From positions 1 through 13,003 of the forward strand of contig CAMNHS010000031.1 of NCBI GenBank assembly GCA_946539635.1: a stretch of DNA of 13,003 nt, read 5' to 3'. This document shows, piece after piece, positions 3,031-12,978 of the stretch. A program made the translations under genes and the position numbers. Within the stretch, counting starts at the first letter, position 1; each line of letters starts with the position of its first letter. Source of the DNA: an uncultured Prevotellaceae bacterium. Lineage in GTDB: Bacteria; Bacteroidota; Bacteroidia; Bacteroidales; Bacteroidaceae. The notes under the pieces are model-generated. The model saw only the letters and a program-made list of their open reading frames with translations, had not been told where the DNA came from and made no database searches.

Positions 3031-3062
3031 CAAATTTAAGGAAAAAATTTGTACATTCCAAA
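3031..3062 (-). promoter_or_regulatory. Promoter of the acyl-CoA synthetase-prfB operon
   Basis: Read on the minus strand, a -33 box TTTG (3062-3059) is followed after exactly 20 bp by TAAATTTG (3038-3031), a full match to the Bacteroidota primary-sigma -7 consensus TAnnTTTG. Transcription would start near 3025, leaving a leader of about 20 nt before the ATG at 3006. No Shine-Dalgarno sequence is present, as is usual in this phylum. The promoter overlaps the divergent plus-strand promoter. Confidence 0.8.
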
Positions 3063-3073
3063 TTTTTTCCTTA
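3037..3073. repeat. Perfect 15-bp inverted repeat at the core of the divergent promoters
   Basis: The arms TAAGGAAAAAATTTG (3037-3051) and CAAATTTTTTCCTTA (3059-3073) are exact reverse complements around a 7-bp centre (3052-3058). After a 2-bp mismatch on each side, symmetry resumes with CAAA at 3031-3034 and TTTG at 3076-3079, giving a 49-bp near-palindrome. The arms contain both -33 boxes, and the full palindrome contains both -7 boxes. It could be a symmetric operator for a dimeric regulator, or simply the outcome of two promoters with matching spacers. A cruciform is possible. Confidence 0.9.
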
Positions 3074-3079
3074 CTTTTG
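3048..3079 (+). promoter_or_regulatory. Promoter of the signalling operon
   Basis: A -33 box TTTG (3048-3051), a 20-bp spacer and TACTTTTG (3072-3079) match the Bacteroidota consensus TTTG/TAnnTTTG exactly. Transcription is expected to begin near 3085, about 25 nt before the ATG at 3110. No other strong promoter was found across the six downstream plus-strand genes, so this one probably drives them all. Confidence 0.82.
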
Positions 3080-3109: not shown

Positions 3110-4267
3110 ATGGTAAAAATACTTAGTGTTGACGATGAATTAGACCTCGAATTGCTATTAACGCAGTATTTCCGTCGCAAGATTCGCAAGGGAGAGTATG
3201 AGTTCTTCTTTGCACACAATGGCATAGAAGCTTTACAGACAATGTTAGAGCATCCTGATATTGACATCGTACTCAGCGATATCAATATGCCTGAGATGGA
3301 TGGTCTCACACTGTTGAAGAAGATTAATGACCGTCATAACCCTGCTCTGAAAGTCATTATGGTGAGTGCCTACGGCGAGATGAATAATATCCGTACTGCC
3401 ATGAACAATGGTGCCTTTGACTTTGCTACAAAGCCAATAGACCTTGATGATCTGCAGATAACTATTGATAAGGCTGTTGCCGAGATAGAATTTGTCAAGC
3501 AGACACAGAAGGAGCATGGGCAGTTGGTGGACATAAAGAGCGACCTGGCTCTTGCAGCAGAAATACAGATGGCAATCCTGCCAAAGATTGATGCCGCAAA
3601 AAATCTGGATTCCAACATTGATCTATATGCCTTCATGAAGCCAGCAAAAGATGTGGGAGGTGACTTTTATGACTATTTCCGCATAGATGACACTCACATT
3701 GGCTTCTGCATCGCTGACGTCAGCGGCAAGGGTGTGCCAGCTGCTATATTCATGGCAGTAAGTCATACCCTACTCCGTATGGCAGGAAAGAAAAATCCAA
3801 ATGCAGTAGAGGTCATCACCGAGAGTAACTCTGTGCTCGCTGGAGAGAGTTTCAACTCTATGTTCGTCACATTGTTCTATGGAGTACTTGACACCAAGAC
3901 TGGTGAGATAAAATATGTGAATGCCGGTCACAATCCTCCATACATACTGAAAGCAAATGGCAGTGTCGAAGTTCTTCCTAACTCTACTAATATCTGCTTG
4001 GGCGTGATCGAAGATTATCAGTACAAGGGAGAAACATTAAAATTGGAAAAAGGCGATTGTATAGTAACCTTCACAGATGGTGTCACCGAAGCATGTTCAC
4101 CTAGCGAAGAATTATATGGTGAAACACGGCTTGAGGAACTTCTAAAGACTCATGGCGGTGATGATTGCGAAACAATTGTTAATGCCATCAGCGATGCGGT
4201 ACACCAGCATGCAGCAGGCGCCGAGCAAAGCGATGACATAACCATATTGATTGTTAAAAAAGCGTGA
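3110..4267 (+). CDS. Response regulator with SpoIIE/RsbU-type PP2C phosphatase output
   Basis: This is a two-domain cytoplasmic protein of 385 residues. Residues 1-125 are a CheY-like receiver with acidic pair D8-D9, phospho-acceptor D57 in S-D-I-N-M-P-E-M-D-G, switch residue S86 and K108-P109. A short helical linker (about 126-148) leads to a PPM/SpoIIE-type phosphatase domain (about 149-384). That domain carries E-I-Q-M-A-I-L-P, the metal-binding G-G-D (183-185), A-D-V-S-G-K-G (202-208), N-A-G-H-N-P (271-276), F-T-D-G-V-T-E (321-327) and S-D-D-I-T (374-378), so metal and catalytic acids appear intact. In this family, phosphorylation of the receiver typically controls dephosphorylation of a STAS anti-anti-sigma protein. 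No STAS or anti-sigma gene is in the window, so the substrate must be encoded elsewhere. The start at ATG 3110 is preferred over the upstream TTG at 3077, because that TTG lies in the -7 box and M-V-K-I-L-S-V-D-D is a standard receiver start. The gene overlaps the next one by 4 nt (GTGA). Confidence 0.95.
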   Translation: MVKILSVDDELDLELLLTQYFRRKIRKGEYEFFFAHNGIEALQTMLEHPDIDIVLSDINMPEMDGLTLLKKINDRHNPALKVIMVSAYGEMNNIRTAMNNGAFDFATKPIDLDDLQITIDKAVAEIEFVKQTQKEHGQLVDIKSDLALAAEIQMAILPKIDAAKNLDSNIDLYAFMKPAKDVGGDFYDYFRIDDTHIGFCIADVSGKGVPAAIFMAVSHTLLRMAGKKNPNAVEVITESNSVLAGESFNSMFVTLFYGVLDTKTGEIKYVNAGHNPPYILKANGSVEVLPNSTNICLGVIEDYQYKGETLKLEKGDCIVTFTDGVTEACSPSEELYGETRLEELLKTHGGDDCETIVNAISDAVHQHAAGAEQSDDITILIVKKA

Positions 4268-6003
4268 ACCTAAAGAAAAAAACCAAAAAGAAATTGGCTG
4301 ACAACATCAGCGGGGTGGCATCAGAAGTTGGCACCCATATTGCTATTGCTGTTATTGCAGGTCTCATCGTTTATGTCTTTGCTTCTTCCGGTTACGAATC
4401 CGAGATTGCAGAATTAAATAACCGCATAGAAGAGATGAAGTCAGCAGAACGCAATGCCCTCATCACAAAACGCATCAGCGAACAGATGGAGGATATTGCC
4501 TATGAGCAAAAGGCTCTGTCTGACAAACAGAGGGAGCGTGCTGAAGAACAGTCACGCCTTGCTGACATAGAAAGAGGCAAAGCCGAATTGGAAAGAGAAG
4601 CAGCAAGAGAGGCAGAGCGAAAGGCACGCGCATCAGCAAAAGAGGCAGAGAGTATGAGGGCCATAGCAGAACAACAGAGTGCTTTGGCAACACAAAATAT
4701 GGAAGAAGCTATTAATGCTCGCTCACATGCTGATACTCTGTTCTACCAATCATTAGCACGTTCGCTGGCACAAACTTCCATCACACAGTATAAATCTGGC
4801 GACAAAAGTTTAGCAGCATTGTTGGCCTATTCTGCTTGGTATTATACAGACAAATTCAAAGGCAACGTTTATCATCAGGATATATACACCGCACTGTTGG
4901 ATAACGCACCCAGAGCAAGAATGCGTATCGGAAGGGTTTCTGGAAATCCACGCGTAATGGCTAAGATACCCGATTCCTACATAAAGGATTCCAAAATGGG
5001 ATATGTCATTGCTACCGATTACGGAGAAATATGTAATCTCATACCAAAACTTAATTCAAAAGGAATTGTTGATAGGTATGATGAGCAAATAATTTTCAAC
5101 GACCCAAACTATCTATTTAGAGATGTCTGTATAGTAAATGGTTATATCCTGGCACTCGACGTAAGTGGCACACTTGTAAAGACTACTCTTACCAGCACAA
5201 ATAACAAACGCACCAGTAACGACTTTGTGGGAAAAGGCCCACGTCCTGCACAACGTATCAAAGAAGATGCTGTTATAAGTCGCAAATACCTTCCTATGAG
5301 CAATATGCCACAGGAACGCTGGCATCACCTGTTACAAAACGATGAAAACAAAATCATTGCTGTTGGAGAACACCAAGTGGTTTGGCTTGACGCTAATGGA
5401 AACAACATTCTTCACACTCATAGTATAACTGATGAAATTAGTGAGGCAGGTGTCATTGAAAATACATTGATTATTTTTACAAAGACAGGTAATCTGCTTA
5501 CCTTCAACGACGGAAGACCTTCAGTTACCACACGCATCTCTCTGCCGCGAAACAATCCTGTCAGCTATTACTATTACATGAAAGACAAGGGTATGCACAT
5601 ACTGGGTACCGAGGATGGAGATGTGTTGTTGTATGACAAAGACCACAAACACATCAAATCTCTCGTAGGACATTCTGGTGCCATAACACATATGGAACAA
5701 TTGGGATGGTGTCTTGCAACATCGAGCTATGACCACAAAATATGCCTATGGAATCTTGATGACTTAAACACCCAGATAGCTCCTATTGAGGTGTACTATG
5801 ATAAGTGGCCACTTAGCTTTACGACAAACAGGGATAACTGGACACTGATAGTCGGTCTTGCTGATGGTGACATAGAGTCATTGCATATTTCTGTCGAAGA
5901 TAATAAGGACAATGTGCATGAACACATAGAACGTAATTTCACCCCACAGGAATGGGAATATTACATAGGTGAAGGAGTAAAGTATAGGAGGTTTAAAGAA
6001 TGA
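4264..6003 (+). CDS. Membrane-anchored coiled-coil protein with WD40-like propeller
   Basis: This 579-residue protein starts at GTG in a GTGA overlap with the phosphatase gene. The N-terminus is Lys-rich (K4-K10), followed by one hydrophobic segment (about 24-42), which by the positive-inside rule places the rest in the periplasm. Residues about 45-155 form a long charged coiled coil rich in Glu, Ala, Lys and Arg. Residues 157-212 form a helical segment with L-A-R-S-L-A and L-A-A-L-L-A-Y-S-A-W, resembling the piece that precedes WD40 repeats in many STAND-type proteins. The rest (about 215-550) looks like a degenerate beta-propeller; the clearest blades are G-D-V-L-L-Y-D (452-458) and the WD-like stretch S-S-Y-D-H-K-I-C-L-W-N (487-497). 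The end contains R-N-F-T-P-Q-E-W (557-564) followed by Y-I-G, similar to the R-N-L-T-x-E-E-W tail of WD40 STAND proteins. No NTPase, kinase or other catalytic domain is visible. A scaffold or sensor role in the module is inference. Confidence 0.85.
   Translation: MNLKKKTKKKLADNISGVASEVGTHIAIAVIAGLIVYVFASSGYESEIAELNNRIEEMKSAERNALITKRISEQMEDIAYEQKALSDKQRERAEEQSRLADIERGKAELEREAAREAERKARASAKEAESMRAIAEQQSALATQNMEEAINARSHADTLFYQSLARSLAQTSITQYKSGDKSLAALLAYSAWYYTDKFKGNVYHQDIYTALLDNAPRARMRIGRVSGNPRVMAKIPDSYIKDSKMGYVIATDYGEICNLIPKLNSKGIVDRYDEQIIFNDPNYLFRDVCIVNGYILALDVSGTLVKTTLTSTNNKRTSNDFVGKGPRPAQRIKEDAVISRKYLPMSNMPQERWHHLLQNDENKIIAVGEHQVVWLDANGNNILHTHSITDEISEAGVIENTLIIFTKTGNLLTFNDGRPSVTTRISLPRNNPVSYYYYMKDKGMHILGTEDGDVLLYDKDHKHIKSLVGHSGAITHMEQLGWCLATSSYDHKICLWNLDDLNTQIAPIEVYYDKWPLSFTTNRDNWTLIVGLADGDIESLHISVEDNKDNVHEHIERNFTPQEWEYYIGEGVKYRRFKE
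5986..5991 (+). promoter_or_regulatory. Perfect Shine-Dalgarno AGGAGG before the pseudo-kinase gene
   Basis: An exact AGGAGG lies 8 nt before the ATG at 6000, inside the last codons (Arg-Arg, AGG AGG) of the WD40-like gene. The spacing is ideal for 16S pairing. Strong Shine-Dalgarno sequences are uncommon in Bacteroidota, whose ribosomes hide the anti-Shine-Dalgarno tail, and the other genes in this window lack one. It may promote re-initiation at the ATGA overlap, or it may be chance codon use. Confidence 0.55.
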
Positions 6004-8336
6004 AAAGAACTTTGATACTATCCCTTCTAACATCTTTACTGTTTCTGAATACAGGAATAGTAAAGGCAACTCCTTTCATTCGTAATTTCACCACAAAGGA
6101 ATATAATGCACACAACAGATGTTTCGATGTTCTCTGTGATAGATACGGTACTGTATTTGTTGCCAACTTCGAAGGTCTGCTGTATTATGACGGAGCCACG
6201 TGGCGAAAGATTCACACTCCTGGCATTAACAGGGTAACACGTCTCATTAAAGGAAAGGATGGAAAGATTTATGTCAGCGGACATGATTTCTATGGTTACA
6301 TCGCTGCCAACAAAACAGGAAGTCTTTACTTGGTACGTGCTACCGACAAGGATGCAAAACGTCTTGAGGGACAGGAAGTGGAGCATCCTAACACATTGCA
6401 ATTAAACTCTGTGAGATTAGCTGTCATTCCTAACAATGGTTTGACAATAAAGAACGAAGATATGGAGTTCCACGTCACAGAAGATGATGGTTTGGCAAGT
6501 AATAATGTTGCCAACATTGCTTATGATGGTGGACAAACAGTATGGGTAGCAACCAATCGCGGTATCACAGCTATCAATACCCCATCACCTTATTGGAGAT
6601 ATGCTGAAGGACAAGGACTGAAAGGCGAGGTATATGCCATTGGAAGAATTAAGAATGCTATATTTGTTGGTACCATGCAGGGACTCTACCGCATAGATAA
6701 CAACGAAGCCATCCCTGTGGGAAATATAGATTGTGCATGTTGGACACTGACACCTGACGGCAACAACGCTCTCATAGCTCTGACATCAGAGGGAAGATAC
6801 CGTGTTACCCTGGATGGTATTCAAGCATTACCTGATGACGGCAGTCTAAAGAAATATCTTGATGCTGCCAATATGAGGAAGATGGCTGATACTCGTATAC
6901 GCTATTCGGTAGAATTTAACAGGAGTTCTCTCACACGTCCGTTTATAGCATATTCTTCTGCAAATATCGTGTATCGAGACAAGGAAAACACTATGTGGGT
7001 AGGTGGCGACTTTGGCGTTGTAGCTTGTGATATGAGTTATCCTCTACAGAAAGAGAAGCCACATGTATATCTTCGCGAAATATCCATCATGAACGACTCC
7101 ATATTGTGGGGCGGATATATGCAGAAAGACCTGCGTCCGATTTCTAAAATGGATAATATCGAAATACCAGCCGACTGCCGCTCTATGACAGTAAGGTATT
7201 CTGTAGGCAAGAACTCCGTCTTCTCGCCTGCAAAATATCGCTATCGCATCAATGGCGGAAACTGGAGCGCATGGTCTTCGGAAACTGTGGCACGATTCAA
7301 CAATATGCCTTACGGTCCTACCCTTCTTGAGATAGAAGCCCAGGACCTTTATGGTAATATCAGCGATGCAGCAAAAGTATCATGGTTCCATCAATTGCCA
7401 CTCTACCTGAGATGGTGGGCTATACTATGTTACATTTTCATCATCATCATGATAATCAGAGGACTTATCAAATGGAGAATGAAGAATATAGAGAAGGCGA
7501 AGATAGCCCTTGAGAGAATTGTCAAAGAACGCACCAAAGACCTCAAGAATGCCCTTGACGAGAAGGAGCGCATGCAGGCTGATATGGTACGTATGGAACG
7601 TAATGCTACAGCAGGTAAACTGACACAGGGACTCATAGATCGCATTCTGAATCCTATTAACTATATCAACAACTTTTCAAAACTCACCAACGGCTTGGCA
7701 AAAGATTTGTCAGATGATATTGAGGATGAGAAGGAGAAAATGTCTAAAGATGGTTATGAGGATTGTATGGATATTCTGGATATGATGCACCAGAACCTCG
7801 GAAAGATTGAGGAACATGGTGTGAATACTACTCACACCTTGCGTGCTATGGAGGCCATGCTCAACAATAATATCGGAACGCCTCGCGACACCAACATCTC
7901 TACTTTATGTCAACAGGCAGCTGATGTCACAAAGGAATATCACAAGACGGATATAACCACCGACATTACTCCTGATATACATGCCGACGTTGACCCAGAG
8001 TCTGTCAACAAAGCTCTGTTATCATTACTCAGTAATGCTGTGTATGCTGTCAACAAGAAGGCTAAGAAAGCACAGTATAAACCAGAGGTAAAGCTATCGC
8101 TGAAGCCTGTTGGCTCTAATGTTGAAATACGCATCTATGATAATGGTATCGGCATTGAAGACACCATTATCGACAAAGTCTTTGACCCATTCTTCACCAC
8201 CAAGACAACCGGTGAGGGAACAGGTGTAGGACTATTCCTCACACGTGAGATAGTACAGGCTCACGGAGGTACTATCACACTCAACTCCGTAAAGGACGAA
8301 CATACAGAATTCTTGATTACCTTTAAAAAACTATAA
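6000..8336 (+). CDS. Propeller-domain sensor histidine-kinase homologue lacking the phospho-acceptor His
   Basis: This 778-residue membrane protein overlaps the preceding gene by 4 nt (ATGA). A signal peptide (1-23) is followed by a periplasmic Reg_prop-type propeller (about 36-348) with roughly seven blades, such as V-F-V-A-N-F-E-G-L (52-60) and M-W-V-G-G-D-F-G-V (332-340). A Y_Y_Y-like domain follows (about 388-462), then one transmembrane helix (about 469-490), a coiled coil (495-535), a dimerisation helix pair (about 536-622) and a HATPase_c domain (about 655-778). The ATPase boxes look intact: N679, D714-N715-G716-I717-G718, F-D-P-F-F (728-732) and G738-E-G-T-G-V-G744. In the H-box the segment reads G-K-L-T-Q-G-L-I-D-R-I-L-N-P, where related kinases have A-H-E at the I-D-R position, so Asp547 replaces the phospho-acceptor His. 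Autophosphorylation at the usual site is therefore impossible; the protein may be a pseudo-kinase or may phosphorylate a partner in trans. The propeller is much shorter than the double propellers of hybrid two-component systems, and no receiver or AraC domain is attached. Confidence 0.9.
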   Translation: MKRTLILSLLTSLLFLNTGIVKATPFIRNFTTKEYNAHNRCFDVLCDRYGTVFVANFEGLLYYDGATWRKIHTPGINRVTRLIKGKDGKIYVSGHDFYGYIAANKTGSLYLVRATDKDAKRLEGQEVEHPNTLQLNSVRLAVIPNNGLTIKNEDMEFHVTEDDGLASNNVANIAYDGGQTVWVATNRGITAINTPSPYWRYAEGQGLKGEVYAIGRIKNAIFVGTMQGLYRIDNNEAIPVGNIDCACWTLTPDGNNALIALTSEGRYRVTLDGIQALPDDGSLKKYLDAANMRKMADTRIRYSVEFNRSSLTRPFIAYSSANIVYRDKENTMWVGGDFGVVACDMSYPLQKEKPHVYLREISIMNDSILWGGYMQKDLRPISKMDNIEIPADCRSMTVRYSVGKNSVFSPAKYRYRINGGNWSAWSSETVARFNNMPYGPTLLEIEAQDLYGNISDAAKVSWFHQLPLYLRWWAILCYIFIIIMIIRGLIKWRMKNIEKAKIALERIVKERTKDLKNALDEKERMQADMVRMERNATAGKLTQGLIDRILNPINYINNFSKLTNGLAKDLSDDIEDEKEKMSKDGYEDCMDILDMMHQNLGKIEEHGVNTTHTLRAMEAMLNNNIGTPRDTNISTLCQQAADVTKEYHKTDITTDITPDIHADVDPESVNKALLSLLSNAVYAVNKKAKKAQYKPEVKLSLKPVGSNVEIRIYDNGIGIEDTIIDKVFDPFFTTKTTGEGTGVGLFLTREIVQAHGGTITLNSVKDEHTEFLITFKKL

Positions 8337-8341
8337 CCGCC

Positions 8342-9160
8342 ATGACAGAATCAGAAAAGCAACAGCAGAAACTCGCTGCATTGGGAATGCTTTCGGCAGG
8401 TATTGCACACGAAATACAAAACCCACTGAATTTCGTCATCAATTTCTCTAAGATGTCTGACAAACTGCTGAAAGACCTCAAAGAGATTATCAACGATGTA
8501 GCTGACACATTGGATCCGGACGATGCTGCAGATATCCAGGATATTGCAGACGACCTATCCACCAATATGCAGAAAATCCAGGAACATGGTGAACGTGCCA
8601 TAAGTATCATACAGGGTATTCTGCTCATCTCCCGTGGCAATGAGGGAGAACATCTTCCTACCGATATCCCACACCTGATACACGAATATGTGTGGCTGTC
8701 GTATCATGCCAAGAGGGCCAATGACAAGTCTTTCAACGTCAGCATCATAGAAGACTATCAGGCAGACATGCCGAAACTGATGGTGATACCACAAGACCTC
8801 TCACGAGCAGTACTCAATGTGATGAATAATGCGGCATATTCTGTAAAGGAACGTACAGTCCAAGAGGAGGAAAAGAAGAATCCGGATTACAAACCCGAGA
8901 TAAAGGTATCAGCCATATATGAAGGCGGGAAGCTGACCATAAAGATTACTGATAACGGTACCGGTATTCCTGAGGAGGTACAGAAGAAGCTGTTCCACGA
9001 AAACATTACCACAAAGCCAGTAGGACAAGGTACAGGACTCGGTATGCAGATAACACACGACATCATTGTCAATGCCCACAAAGGTGAGATAAAGATTGAC
9101 ACCAAAGTCGGAGAAGGTACCACCGTTACTTTTGTCATACCAGTAGAGAGTGTGAAGTAA
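8342..9160 (+). CDS. Small soluble sensorless histidine kinase
   Basis: This 272-residue cytoplasmic protein begins 5 nt after the pseudo-kinase gene. It consists of a dimerisation/phospho-acceptor domain and an ATPase domain, with no signal peptide, membrane helix or sensor domain; only 22 residues precede the acceptor H23 in G-I-A-H-E-I-Q-N-P-L-N-F. The H-box and following helices (18-98) align well with residues 542-622 of the upstream protein. Shared points include I-N-F-S-K / N-N-F-S-K and K-I-Q-E-H-G / K-I-E-E-H-G, showing that the two are paralogues. ATPase motifs are N162-N163, D204-N205-G206-T207-G208 and G228-Q-G-T-G-L-G234. The F-box is altered: the usual F-F pair is N221-I222. The likely role is donating phosphate to D57 of the operon's response regulator. 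Without its own sensor it probably depends on the neighbouring propeller protein for input; that pairing is inferred from gene order and homology. Confidence 0.92.
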   Translation: MTESEKQQQKLAALGMLSAGIAHEIQNPLNFVINFSKMSDKLLKDLKEIINDVADTLDPDDAADIQDIADDLSTNMQKIQEHGERAISIIQGILLISRGNEGEHLPTDIPHLIHEYVWLSYHAKRANDKSFNVSIIEDYQADMPKLMVIPQDLSRAVLNVMNNAAYSVKERTVQEEEKKNPDYKPEIKVSAIYEGGKLTIKITDNGTGIPEEVQKKLFHENITTKPVGQGTGLGMQITHDIIVNAHKGEIKIDTKVGEGTTVTFVIPVESVK

Positions 9161-11902
9161 ATGGTTGATATAAGGATGAAAAAAATGACCAATATATTAC
9201 GACATACCAGAATCATAATAACGACGCTTCTTGTAACACTGTCAACACTTACTGTCAGTGCTCAAGCTTCCCCTGCTGATGTTGCCCAACTATACTCAAA
9301 GGCACAGGCAGAATATAGCAACGGACAGTTTGACAAATGTAAGGAATCGTTATATGCTATGCTGCCATCTGCCAAAGGTATGCTCAAGACAAGTGCCTAC
9401 AGGCTGCTGGCTCTCTGCTCTCTGGAACAGGGTGATATCGAAGGAGCAAAGAATAATGTGGCCTTACTGTTGAAGTCTGACCCCTATTTCACACCATCTC
9501 TTGGTGACCCGATGCGTTTTCTTGATATGGTCAGCGAAGCAAAAGACCAGTCTGCAGGTATCACGACAGCATCACGACAAGCTGAGACGATAGAAGAAGC
9601 TCCTGTTCCTGTAACACTGATTACAGACGAGATGATTCGCCACTCCGGAGCACAAACATTGCAAGAGGTGTTGTGTCTCTTCGTACCGGGTATGACAGTA
9701 GCAGAGGGTATGGAATCCAACATCGCCATGCATGGAGTATATTCTCTGGCACAGGATAAGATTCTCATAATGGTTGATGGACATAGATTAAACAGTTCTT
9801 CCACAAATGCTGAAGCGCCTGACTTCCGTACAAGCCTCGACAAAGTGAAACAGATAGAGGTGCTACGTGGACCTGCTTCATCACTTTATGGTAATGTGGC
9901 CCTCACTGCCGTTGTTAATATCATTACCTATAAGGGTGCGGAACTCAATGGTGCACGCATCAGCGGAACAGCCGGCTCACAAAATTCCTTCGGCGGCTCT
10001 ATGGTTGTCGGCGGTGGTAATAATGTTGTCGATATTATGGGATGGGGTTCTATCTATAACACTCAGGGATTTAAACATGATGTTGACAACGGATTTGGTG
10101 GCAACACCCGACTATATTCCCATGCCACAAGCGGTCGCCCTTCCTATGACATTGGTATAAAAGGACGTTGGCAGGATTTCACCATCGGCATTAACTTGCA
10201 GCGCTCTAAACGTGTACCATATTTTAATGTTCTACAGGTTGGCAGCAAGACAACCCTGAAAGAGGTCATAACAGGATTATTAACTAATTTTGGCGAAGAT
10301 GAAGAAGATCTTATGGCTTTAAAGGCCTATGGCATAGAGCCTAACATCGATCCCGACGTTAATGCCTTCCGCAACTTCAATTATGACCGCTATGGAAAGC
10401 TGAATGGCGAGACTCCTGGCATCGTGCGTTCCAATAATCGCATAAATGTGGACTATGCACATACCTTCGGAAAAATAGATGTACAGGCGTCTGCATACAT
10501 CAATTTTGAGAACACATCTTTATATAATGTATTAGGCGACTCTGTTAATAGCGAAGTCATCCCAGATGCCACTGTTGACTTTATGGAGTACCTTATTGCA
10601 CAACAGTTCCCTGCCGGCTCCCCTCAGGTTGTGTTATATAATACTATCTTTGAAACACTCATCCGAGGTAAGACAATAGGAGATGTTCTGAAATATACCA
10701 TAACACCATTAAGTGATGACCCACAGAGTGTCAAGCTTCGAAATGTTATGAATATGATTCCTTCCTCCTATCAGGGTGTCTTCCAGAAACTTGACTGGCA
10801 GAATACCACATACGGATTCCAGGCACAGGGTCTCACCAACTATAATCTTCTTGGTCACGGATCCTTTATCCTTGGAGCTCAGATGGAACATTTCACCTTG
10901 ACAGGCGTGAACTTCAGCATGGGTGGTGGTTTTACGACTCCTGCCACTATGTCATCATCATATGTTTTCAAAGAAGGAAAAGAGACATCTCTGTCTGGCT
11001 ACATGCAGATAAAGCATTTCTTCTCTCCTCGATGGATTCTCAATGCTGGTTTGCGCTATGACAACAAACGTCGCTTCAACGGCTCACGTCTGAGAAGACT
11101 CTCACCACGTTTCTCTATCATACATAAGCTGGACAATCACTGGACCCTGCGTGGAAATTACAACTATTCCTTCGTAGATGCTCCATACCTCTATCGTGTG
11201 TGTGTGCTTCCTATCTTCAGCGGTGGTGAGGATATGCAGCCAGAAACCATGCATGGCATAAATCTTGGTACTGAATACCATAAGGGTAGCTTACGTGCTG
11301 AGTTAGGTACTTTCTATAATCTTCTCAACGACCTCGTAGTCCTCAACACTGGTATTGCACAGAGCTTTACATCCTCTGATGGTGAAGCATATATCTTCAA
11401 TAACGCCGGTAAGGTACATATCTTTGGCGTAGAGGGTGCAGCACAGCTCTATCGTCGCAACTTCTTTGCCAATGTCAATGCTACATGGCAGCGTGTGGTA
11501 AAGCATGAGAATTATATAGTTCATAACTCACAGACATTCTCTACTCCAGCCTTCCATACCAACCTCATCGTAGCAGGTGCGCCATATCGTGGTAGAGGTA
11601 CCGGATTCCTCAAGGGTGGCACACTATGGGTGCGTGGTACCGGGCAGTTCCAGACAGCTACATACTATCGTACTGTTGACCTTCTGCGTACCGTCATCAT
11701 GGGTGACTATGCTTCTATCTTCAATCGTGTAGCACCACAGTTCGTTATGGGGTTAGGAGTTGACTATGAATGGAAGTATCTCGACCTGAACCTTTCTCTG
11801 AAAAATGTCTTCAATAATAAATATAGTATTGGCTCTATGCTTGCTGATGGTACTCCGCGGCCCGGACGCTCTTTTGTTGCCAAACTTACAGTAAAATTCT
11901 GA
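9161..11902 (+). CDS. TonB-dependent outer-membrane receptor with N-terminal TPR-like domain
   Basis: This 913-residue protein has a signal peptide (hydrophobic core about 18-32, cleavage near A34-Q35). An alpha-helical TPR-like segment follows (about 38-126), with A-E-Y-S-N-G-Q-F-D-K-C and L-E-Q-G-D-I-E-G-A-K. The plug domain spans about 140-258, with V-P-V-T-L-I-T (149-155), V-D-G-H-R-L (205-210) and I-E-V-L-R-G-P-A-S-S-L-Y-G (232-244). The remainder is a 22-strand-type barrel ending in an aromatic residue (V-K-F), with the typical L-S-L-K-N-V-F-N-N-K-Y near the end. The carboxypeptidase-like N-terminal domain common in SusC-type receptors is absent, as is a SusD partner, so this is not a standard polysaccharide-utilisation pair. 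The ligand is unknown. ATG 9161 abuts the kinase stop (TAAATG). ATG 9176 or 9185 would give a shorter leader, and AAGGA sits 8 nt before 9185, so the start is uncertain by up to 24 nt. The 3' end overlaps argE by 1 nt (TGATG). Confidence 0.93.
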   Translation: MVDIRMKKMTNILRHTRIIITTLLVTLSTLTVSAQASPADVAQLYSKAQAEYSNGQFDKCKESLYAMLPSAKGMLKTSAYRLLALCSLEQGDIEGAKNNVALLLKSDPYFTPSLGDPMRFLDMVSEAKDQSAGITTASRQAETIEEAPVPVTLITDEMIRHSGAQTLQEVLCLFVPGMTVAEGMESNIAMHGVYSLAQDKILIMVDGHRLNSSSTNAEAPDFRTSLDKVKQIEVLRGPASSLYGNVALTAVVNIITYKGAELNGARISGTAGSQNSFGGSMVVGGGNNVVDIMGWGSIYNTQGFKHDVDNGFGGNTRLYSHATSGRPSYDIGIKGRWQDFTIGINLQRSKRVPYFNVLQVGSKTTLKEVITGLLTNFGEDEEDLMALKAYGIEPNIDPDVNAFRNFNYDRYGKLNGETPGIVRSNNRINVDYAHTFGKIDVQASAYINFENTSLYNVLGDSVNSEVIPDATVDFMEYLIAQQFPAGSPQVVLYNTIFETLIRGKTIGDVLKYTITPLSDDPQSVKLRNVMNMIPSSYQGVFQKLDWQNTTYGFQAQGLTNYNLLGHGSFILGAQMEHFTLTGVNFSMGGGFTTPATMSSSYVFKEGKETSLSGYMQIKHFFSPRWILNAGLRYDNKRRFNGSRLRRLSPRFSIIHKLDNHWTLRGNYNYSFVDAPYLYRVCVLPIFSGGEDMQPETMHGINLGTEYHKGSLRAELGTFYNLLNDLVVLNTGIAQSFTSSDGEAYIFNNAGKVHIFGVEGAAQLYRRNFFANVNATWQRVVKHENYIVHNSQTFSTPAFHTNLIVAGAPYRGRGTGFLKGGTLWVRGTGQFQTATYYRTVDLLRTVIMGDYASIFNRVAPQFVMGLGVDYEWKYLDLNLSLKNVFNNKYSIGSMLADGTPRPGRSFVAKLTVKF

Positions 11903-12978
11903 TGACAAACCAGGAAATACTTTCTGAAGCACTTTCCCTGCTTCAGCAATTGATAGCCATCCCTTCTGTCTCACGTGACGAAGCTGCTGCTGCTGACCTT
12001 CTTGAAAAGGTTATCAGCGGCTATGGTCTTCACCCCCAGCGAAAGGGTAATAATATATGGGTTATCTCTGACAAATGGGATGACAATAAAGAGATAATCC
12101 TGCTGAATGCACATATCGATACGGTAAAACCTGTCAGCACATGGACTCGTGACCCTTTTTCTCCCGTTATCGAGGATGGGCGTCTCTATGGTCTTGGCAG
12201 CAATGACTGTGGGGGCGGATTGGTAACTCTTTTGCAGGTTTTCCGCGAACTCACCAGCCGTCCTGAGCAACATTATAACTTTGTTTATCTCGCCAGCTGC
12301 GAAGAAGAGGTTAGCGGCATTGGTGGCATACGTTCTGTCATCAGCGATAGTCCCCTCTCCTGTTTCTTCTCAAAATCTTCTGGCATAACAGCGGTTGTTG
12401 GTGAGCCGACAGGCATGCAACCTGCTATAGCGGAACGGGGACTTATGGTGCTCGATGGTATCGCTCATGGAAAATCGGGACATGCTGCTCGCGGAGAAGG
12501 TATCAATGCCATCCATGAGGTTTTAGACGACTTGCTCTTTATACGTGATTATCACTTCGAAAAGACATCTCCGCTCCTTGGTGATACCAAGATGCAATGT
12601 ACAGTCATCAATAGTGGTACACAACATAATGTGGTGCCCGACGAATGTCGTTTCATCGTCGATGTGCGCACTAATGAATACTATACTAATGAAGAGGTGT
12701 TAGAATTCTTGCAGAGCAAACTAAAGAGTTCCATTTCAGCTCGCTCTACCCATCTGCGCTCATCACATATACCAGAGAGTCATCCTCTCATCCGGAAGTG
12801 TATCGCTATGGGAATGACACCATTTGGTTCTCCCACATTAAGTGACCAAGCCCTGATGCCTATACCGTCGTTCAAACTCGGCCCAGGACAATCTTCTCGC
12901 TCTCACTCCGCAGATGAATATATCTGTATCAGCGAGATAAGCGACGCAATAGAAAAATACCTGTACCTATTTTCGTAA
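11902..12978 (+). CDS. argE: M20 metallo-deacylase, ArgE type (N-acyl-ornithine/citrulline deacylase)
   Basis: This cytoplasmic zinc amidohydrolase of 358 residues belongs to the ArgE/DapE (M20) family and would remove an N-acyl group in arginine synthesis. Bacteroides use succinylated intermediates, with deacylation at the citrulline stage, so N-succinyl-citrulline is a plausible substrate; this is inferred from phylum knowledge. Visible residues are metal ligand H71 and D73 in N-A-H-I-D-T-V, bridging D102 in G-S-N-D-C-G-G, catalytic and metal-binding Glu in C-E-E-E-V-S-G (133-139, probably E135 and E136), E168 in V-G-E-P-T-G and H335 in R-S-H-S-A-D-E. The dimerisation (lid) domain spans about 175-285, including G-K-S-G-H-A-A-R and G-T-Q-H-N-V-V-P. 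The whole protein reads like Bacteroidales proteins annotated ArgE. It overlaps the receptor gene by 1 nt, so it is probably co-transcribed with the signalling genes although its metabolic role appears unrelated. No other arg gene is present in the window. Confidence 0.85.
   Translation: MTNQEILSEALSLLQQLIAIPSVSRDEAAAADLLEKVISGYGLHPQRKGNNIWVISDKWDDNKEIILLNAHIDTVKPVSTWTRDPFSPVIEDGRLYGLGSNDCGGGLVTLLQVFRELTSRPEQHYNFVYLASCEEEVSGIGGIRSVISDSPLSCFFSKSSGITAVVGEPTGMQPAIAERGLMVLDGIAHGKSGHAARGEGINAIHEVLDDLLFIRDYHFEKTSPLLGDTKMQCTVINSGTQHNVVPDECRFIVDVRTNEYYTNEEVLEFLQSKLKSSISARSTHLRSSHIPESHPLIRKCIAMGMTPFGSPTLSDQALMPIPSFKLGPGQSSRSHSADEYICISEISDAIEKYLYLFS

Follow-up and report, generated by a model that had tools for sequence, protein, structure and literature searches.

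What could hold together, behind a single promoter, a response regulator that ends in a phosphatase, a WD40-like membrane protein, two relatives of histidine kinases and a TonB receptor? The question is raised by a stretch of 13,003 bases from an uncultured Prevotellaceae bacterium, here called the window, which is one entire contig (C31) of a 1.2-Mb genome that is 57% complete, and whose nearest relatives are uncultured Prevotella or Prevotellaceae, part of them from sheep or rumen. Its plus strand encodes, in this order, a response regulator of 385 amino acids (RR-PP2C; 3110..4267), a WD40-like membrane protein with a coiled coil and a GTG start (579 amino acids; 4264..6003), a propeller sensor with a pseudo-histidine kinase (778 amino acids; 6000..8336), a bare soluble histidine kinase (HK) of 272 amino acids (8342..9160), and a TonB receptor with an N-terminal TPR-like domain (913 amino acids; 9161..11902), an order abbreviated below as R-W-P-K-T. 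Gene calls and junctions confirm the layout given in a preliminary description made from the sequence alone: the first two junctions are 4-nt overlaps (GTGA between RR-PP2C and the WD40 gene, ATGA between the latter and the sensor), the third is a gap of 5 nt (TAA-5 nt-ATG), the fourth a gap of 0 nt (TAA-ATG), and one promoter-like site of the Bacteroidota type precedes them all. We find that the five-gene block is a real, conserved signaling unit, composed of known parts. Its best explanation, which we hold to be fairly likely, is a two-component system that spans the envelope and ends in partner switching, close to the envelope phospho-relay first proposed for it and now supported by the conserved gene order and by the adjacency of RsbW-like and STAS genes in relatives.

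A Conserved Order of Five Genes

The main sample comprised 199 genomes of the same genus, namely the window's own and others at least 80% complete. RR-PP2C was present in 69 of these, at identities to the window's protein from about 100% down to 51%, and the loci of all 69 were examined. Five family profiles, built from the first loci, placed R-W-P-K-T contiguously, in order and on one strand in 55 of the 69, each gap being less than 500 nt by profile envelope. The five families thus show conserved adjacency, rather than lying scattered in unrelated contexts as a refutation of the preliminary description would have required. Six of the 14 exceptions are accounted for by contig ends or two-contig splits (G170, G172, G208, G227, G242, G243). 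Three read R-W-P-K and then directly a nonribosomal peptide synthetase (NRPS) gene in the TonB place (G074, G168, G230), and two carry an NRPS gene inserted between K and T (G226, G106); the last three have P-K-T with the regulator on the opposite strand and no WD40 gene found (G110), a sensor spread over two frames (G182), and R-W-P-T without the kinase (G154).

The bare kinase is confined to the same genomes. A kinase query at E<=1e-22 matched 68 of the 199, of which 65 hold the bare kinase and three the sensor alone; by genome, the bare kinase occurs in 65/69 with RR-PP2C versus 0/130 without it. Among a first set of ten loci, seven (L005-L011) belong to the system and three (L012-L014) are distant kinases outside it; all five genes plus an M20 gene occur in the same order in L005, L006, L007, L010 and L011, and L008 and L009 start within the module, with the remainder present. 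In two small surveys, 16 of 60 relatives had the WD40 protein and 24 of 100 had RR-PP2C (E<=1e-60). Outside the genus RR-PP2C adjoins a kinase in L102, L103 and L105, and stands without one in L104. Close matches to the window's neighboring genes (prfB, acyl-CoA ligase and M20) were confined to window-type loci, which argues that the module travels without them. Locus counts given below refer to 101 module loci, a set that omits L059-L063 (distant or no WD40 match) and L102-L105 (other families), leaves L064 unmapped, and was not deduplicated (L005 and L106 are one contig).

Shared ancestry of close relatives, preserving five genes that are neighbors by chance, would account for the fact that the full five-gene copies found all fall in one genus sample or among the first Prevotella/Prevotellaceae loci. 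Against this, the order is intact though identity drops to 51-65% for RR-PP2C and to about 25-40% for the WD40 protein, and paralogous copies within one genome retain W-P-T, so that we consider such an origin highly improbable.

A Sensor without Histidine and a Kinase without Sensor

The propeller sensor has Reg_prop matches, a transmembrane (TM) segment at residues 472-490 and a recognizable kinase core (HATPase_c, 1.3e-20), yet has lost the phosphoacceptor histidine, and is in this sense a pseudo-histidine kinase; the bare kinase, which has no TM segment, matches both HisKA (4.1e-8) and HATPase_c (1.7e-20). In the dimerization and histidine-phosphotransfer (DHp) region the sensor motif is LTQGLIDRILNP, versus LSAGIAHEIQNP in the bare kinase (aligned, LIDRILNP versus IAHEIQNP), the His-Glu pair (HE) of the phosphoacceptor site being Asp-Arg (DR) in the sensor. 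Sensor matches were obtained 98 times in the 101 loci; 94 display the motif, all 94 with DR, and four stop short of it, and the bare kinase keeps HE in 76/76 mapped copies. A search with sensor residues 500-778 gave 1955 homologues, with DR in all 120 listed. The pair is invariant in alignments A1 (15 rows) and A3 (58 rows), as is the Asn four residues past the lost His (D-R-I-L-N), and N679, D714, G716 and G718 of the N- and G1-boxes show no variation among the 58 rows of A3. The pseudo-kinase named in the preliminary description therefore stands, its lost His-Glu pair being replaced by Asp-Arg; the idea of a decayed kinase does not, because that pair is invariant, and the sensors are better described as a conserved lineage.

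This lineage extends well beyond the genus. An order-wide survey with A1 (247 genomes, 40 matched, 30 of the 40 loci read, one per genome) gave, among the matches listed, DR in 10/30, the window being one of them, and HE in 20/30. An HE kinase lies directly 3' in eight of the ten DR loci, or 7/9 with the window excluded; of those where none was seen, L190 is near a contig edge and L189 has none within its 1.5 kb. A phylum survey (296 genomes, 44 matched, 15 of the 44 loci read, 14 of them new) added two DR loci (L211, L212), in both of which an HE kinase and a receiver come next; the remaining 12 new loci were HE. DR sensors thereby occur in at least ten families beyond the window's own, and 9/11 such loci are followed by an intact kinase.

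Within the genus sample, copies of the module that lack the adjoining kinase were found in 14 genomes (G018, G025, G033, G034, G119, G124, G129, G132, G154, G157, G168, G205, G214, G226), some of the copies being cut at contig ends and that of G025 being a lone sensor. The bare kinase is located elsewhere in 13 of the 14, and three satellites (L057, L171, L172) are also without an adjoining regulator. These satellite copies imply that the kinase, and sometimes the response regulator, need not be in cis. All readable copies without the kinase keep DR, and the possibility that they had regained the histidine was rejected on that ground.

A sensor that lacks the phosphoacceptor His and its adjacent acid, and keeps its N- and G1-boxes, would be expected to act through the sensorless kinase, and it probably does so by pairing with it through related DHp helices. 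The alternative to pairing is a phosphatase role for the sensor, which seems doubtful to us. In its full form the pseudo-kinase would be a ligand-controlled phosphatase of the regulator and the bare kinase unregulated, such that the signal sets the rate at which the phosphoryl group is removed. The invariant Asn of D-R-I-L-N argues for such a scheme, since HisKA kinases use this position for phosphatase catalysis and their His mutants can keep phosphatase activity; but the NP pair is conserved in HisKA kinases for general reasons as well, and the satellites with neither regulator nor kinase alongside would need a target regulator encoded elsewhere. We regard it as unlikely.

The window's sensor is without 128 propeller alignment columns (after residues 122, 289, 296 and 312) held by more than half of the rows of A3, and in L183 and L184 (G310, G405) DR pseudo-kinases occupy short frames of 379 and 385 amino acids, with an intact kinase still 3'.

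A Probable Output through Partner Switching

RR-PP2C joins a receiver (PF00072, 8e-23), whose phosphoacceptor Asp is D57 by count, to a SpoIIE/PP2C phosphatase (PF07228, 5.8e-51) with its metal-binding Asp motifs. The motifs DINMP, YD, DV(S/C)GKG, TDG/SDG and DDI are kept across aligned relatives. The protein scores below the curated NCBIfam cut-off for the RssB equivalog (NF045505, 118.1 bits versus 700); among solved structures the nearest in sequence is 3eq2, which is labeled a probable two-component response regulator and which we take to be RssB of P. aeruginosa.

That such a phosphatase feeds a partner switch was at first a guess, and it is strengthened by linkage: in 12/101 loci RsbW-like genes (eight loci) and/or STAS genes (ten loci) are found no more than 1.5 kb from the module, always on its strand. 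The order is STAS > RsbW > RR-PP2C in L055, L056, L129 and L169, and TonB > RsbW > STAS in L161, and in another Bacteroidales family (L103/L180) pseudo-kinase > HK > RR-PP2C > RsbW > STAS stand in a row. Pfam confirms the RsbW/STAS pairs of L161 and L103, and PF13581 is placed likewise in L139, L143 and L161. At 70 bits and under 220 amino acids, no RsbW/STAS gene was found in 377 kb of farther flank, compared with 253 kb of near flank; three further genes lie just beyond the stretches covered, some 4-6 kb off RR-PP2C, matching PF13581 (G210:C2) or STAS (G168:C101, G157:C301). In a 99% complete genome (G132; L005), whose RR-PP2C is 99.7% identical to that of the window, an RsbW-STAS pair is found on a separate contig, and by hand-copied lists a PF13581 match better than 1e-15 occurs in 68/69 RR-PP2C genomes versus 51/130 others. 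The linkage in relatives points to a STAS protein as the probable substrate of the phosphatase.

Some relatives also place biosynthetic genes beside the module. A gene with adenylation or condensation domains adjoins a module gene in 17/101 loci (L096, L099, L114, L117, L120, L121, L136-L139, L142, L147, L151, L158, L162, L164, L172), 12 with condensation and five with adenylation alone, the latter perhaps not NRPS genes; Pfam was used to check seven of the 17, and the rest come from profiles built on five of those seven, with seven acyl-CoA ligase rows below 60 bits (minus or plus strand) excluded, and 78 of the 101 loci extend at least 1 kb past the last module gene. Such a gene occupies the TonB place in L099, L120 and L162 and lies at 1.35 kb in L129. 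No NRPS gene is present in the window. The W-P-T copy in G132 continues into an NRPS of 1848 amino acids. Condensation domains occur in 46/69 RR-PP2C genomes versus 32/130 others, a co-occurrence that we rejected as an argument for the module: once the comparison is restricted to genomes having a strong RsbW-like match, those with and without the module do not differ (45/68 versus 31/51, Fisher p 0.57), and for this reason only physical adjacency was used. On a broad extrapolation, several sets of TPR-TonB receptor, WD40 protein and His-less sensor would share one kinase and RR-PP2C as spokes share a hub and, via RsbW/STAS, control NRPS, the cell sensing its own or a neighbor's peptide at its surface; we offer this as speculation that is more apt to prove wrong than right by a wide measure.

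In 7/12 loci the genes of a second operon, PP2C-RsbW fusion > STAS > NRPS, lie contiguously, a fraction that is no rate, as eight of the 12 were chosen for RsbW and condensation matches on one contig. It occurs in L225-L230 and L234 (G230, G159, G019, G060, G193, G125, G144), with a fusion of 725-760 amino acids, a STAS protein of about 105 and an NRPS of at least 2,150. The fusion of L225, the one scanned, carries a PDC/cache sensor domain, and in L226, L227, L228 and L234 a gene of 438-456 amino acids precedes the NRPS, matching serine dehydratase alpha in L226, again the one scanned.

Predicted Envelope Components

The WD40 protein of the window has a single N-terminal TM segment (residues 22-40) by a simple hydropathy scan, which found a TM segment in 96/120 homologues and none in 24/120. 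Lys and Arg are richer in the 15 residues before this segment than after it (mean 3.1 versus 1.4), and the protein is therefore predicted to lie N-in with a periplasmic propeller. Propeller models all fell under the Pfam cut-off in the window's copy; its profile matches WD40 chains, designed and natural.

In the receptor the TonB part of the original label is secure (Plug 1e-16, barrel 2.1e-26), whereas the TPR signal is weak in the window (ANAPC3 alone, E 0.055); Pfam TPR models are precomputed on two (P0285, P0318) of 120 listed homologues. Residues 30-330 match 2567 proteins at E<=1e-10, 120 of them listed. Solved relatives, matched chiefly in the plug, are colicin I, heme, B12 and siderophore receptors. 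The receptor fails the SusC-family model (TIGR04056, 26.4 bits versus 368.25) and no SusD match appeared among the seven scanned proteins, as had been noted at the outset. Nor does it carry the marks of a FecA-type transducer, STN being unmatched in the receptor and FecR and sigma in the scanned proteins; the sole STN match is a chance-level one in the M20 protein (E 0.036, 14.3 of 28.4 bits). Two or three TPR-TonB genes stand behind one module in L113, L133, L137, L139 and L163, successive ones being separated by an additional gene in L137 and L139.

The locus might instead serve nutrient uptake, the receptor importing a substrate and the regulators only tuning expression of the locus itself, with no signal starting at the outer membrane. 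TonB receptors are usually transporters, the TPR-TonB proteins are a large family and the operon of the window closes with an M20 deacylase, all of which would fit. The six operon genes, however, include no inner-membrane transporter, the output of the regulator is a phosphatase without a DNA-binding domain, and the R-W-P-K-T order persists while downstream genes vary. An uptake locus is thus a reading to which we give little credence.

A Model and Its Relation to Known Systems

In the trans-envelope system that we favor, the TPR-TonB receptor would meet its ligand in the outer membrane, and the signal would run through the periplasm from the TPR-like domain to the membrane-anchored WD40 propeller and on to the propeller of the sensor. 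The bare kinase, engaged by the sensor, would phosphorylate D57 of RR-PP2C, a step for which co-occurrence argues strongly; phospho-D57 would turn on the PP2C domain, the STAS antagonist would be dephosphorylated and the RsbW-like serine kinase would swap partners. Satellite copies without the kinase would plug additional receptors into one common kinase.

Several observations weigh against this model. Counts across genomes ignore shared ancestry. The TonB and WD40 parts are replaceable, because G074, G168 and G230 carry another gene in the TonB place and in G110 no WD40 gene was found, and the receptor is not module-specific, as the TPR-TonB family numbers thousands. No RsbW/STAS gene lies within 1.5 kb in 89/101 loci, and four of the 12 positive loci supplied the RsbW and STAS profiles and therefore could not fail to match them; the window has no such genes, and its own genome, 57% complete, gave no PF13581 match and one STAS match. 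G154, the sole genome with a kinase-less copy in which no kinase was found, is 85% complete.

Each part of the module has relatives in known systems. The hybrid two-component systems (HTCS) of this phylum have a phosphoacceptor His, a fused receiver and an AraC output. Like them, the module sensor has a Reg_prop propeller, a TM segment and HATPase_c, with Y_Y_Y in two longer homologues scanned. Unlike them, it has Asp-Arg at the His site, no fused receiver and no DNA-binding domain (HisKA, Response_reg and HTH are all unmatched in 6000-8336 at E<=0.1), its output is a separate phosphatase, and SusD was unmatched among the proteins scanned here. DivL and RetS are pseudo-kinases that act via partner kinases. 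HrrS-ChrS heterodimers are reported in C. glutamicum (PMC9491836), a kinase-dead variant of ChrS acting there through an intact kinase, as we propose here; this ChrS had been inactivated in its ATPase domain during laboratory evolution. The ATPase domain of the module sensor, by contrast, looks intact; it is the His-Glu pair that is exchanged, and this exchange has become fixed across families.

Receiver-PP2C regulators with a STAS partner switch include HsbR-HsbA of P. aeruginosa and CrsR-CrsA of S. oneidensis (PMC6482189). The module shares with this RssB/HsbR type a receiver fused to a SpoIIE-type phosphatase and, in some relatives, an adjoining STAS gene; it differs in that the RR-PP2C chain has no RsbW-type domain match, and that its front end pairs a pseudo-kinase with a distinct kinase, alongside WD40 and TonB proteins. 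FecA-FecR-FecI likewise sets signaling genes beside an outer-membrane receptor that carries an additional periplasmic domain at its N terminus (PMC9249621), but the receptor of the module has no STN match, its extra domain being TPR-like, and the scanned operon proteins gave no FecR or ECF sigma match.

Among the papers listed from a single open-licence library, by titles and abstract openings, we found no description of the composition, the fixed pseudokinase or the shared-kinase layout, in line with the original impression, and the combination is apparently undescribed. If the model is correct, this would be a natural family with the sensing and catalytic halves of a histidine kinase divided between two proteins, the His-less state being fixed in many families of one phylum, and a route from surface receptor to phosphatase in Bacteroidota that is separate from HTCS and FecA/FecR signaling. 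With the shared-kinase satellites, signal convergence could be tested directly, and an output is suggested by the linkage to RsbW/STAS and NRPS genes.

Promoter, Operon End and Neighboring Genes

The operon had been drawn as 3110-11902. Its five-gene part holds, but not its end, since an M20/ArgE-like deacylase gene (11902..12978, plus strand), the sixth operon gene in the clade of the window, continues it through a TGATG junction with a 1-nt overlap with the TonB stop; this gene lies 3' of TonB in 7/7 relatives (L005-L011). The plus strand of the window thus holds six operon genes, and the minus strand a gene that is presumably prfB and an acyl-CoA ligase gene. No Rfam family at gathering score and no tRNA was found in the window, and a reading as a defense system was rejected, the five proteins giving no PADLOC match at 1e-5.

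The promoter-like site, TTTG-N20-TACTTTTG (3048..3079, plus strand), is the sole plus-strand match in the window to TTTG-N17-23-TAnnTTTG, which we take to be the Bacteroidota consensus; the minus strand has two matches, and the chance level is 0.125 per strand (mean of 200 mononucleotide shuffles). A plus-strand match stands at the equivalent place in L005, L006, L007 and L011 and is absent from L010. Across 3031-3079 of the window two promoter matches overlap back to back, one facing the acyl-CoA ligase gene and the other RR-PP2C.

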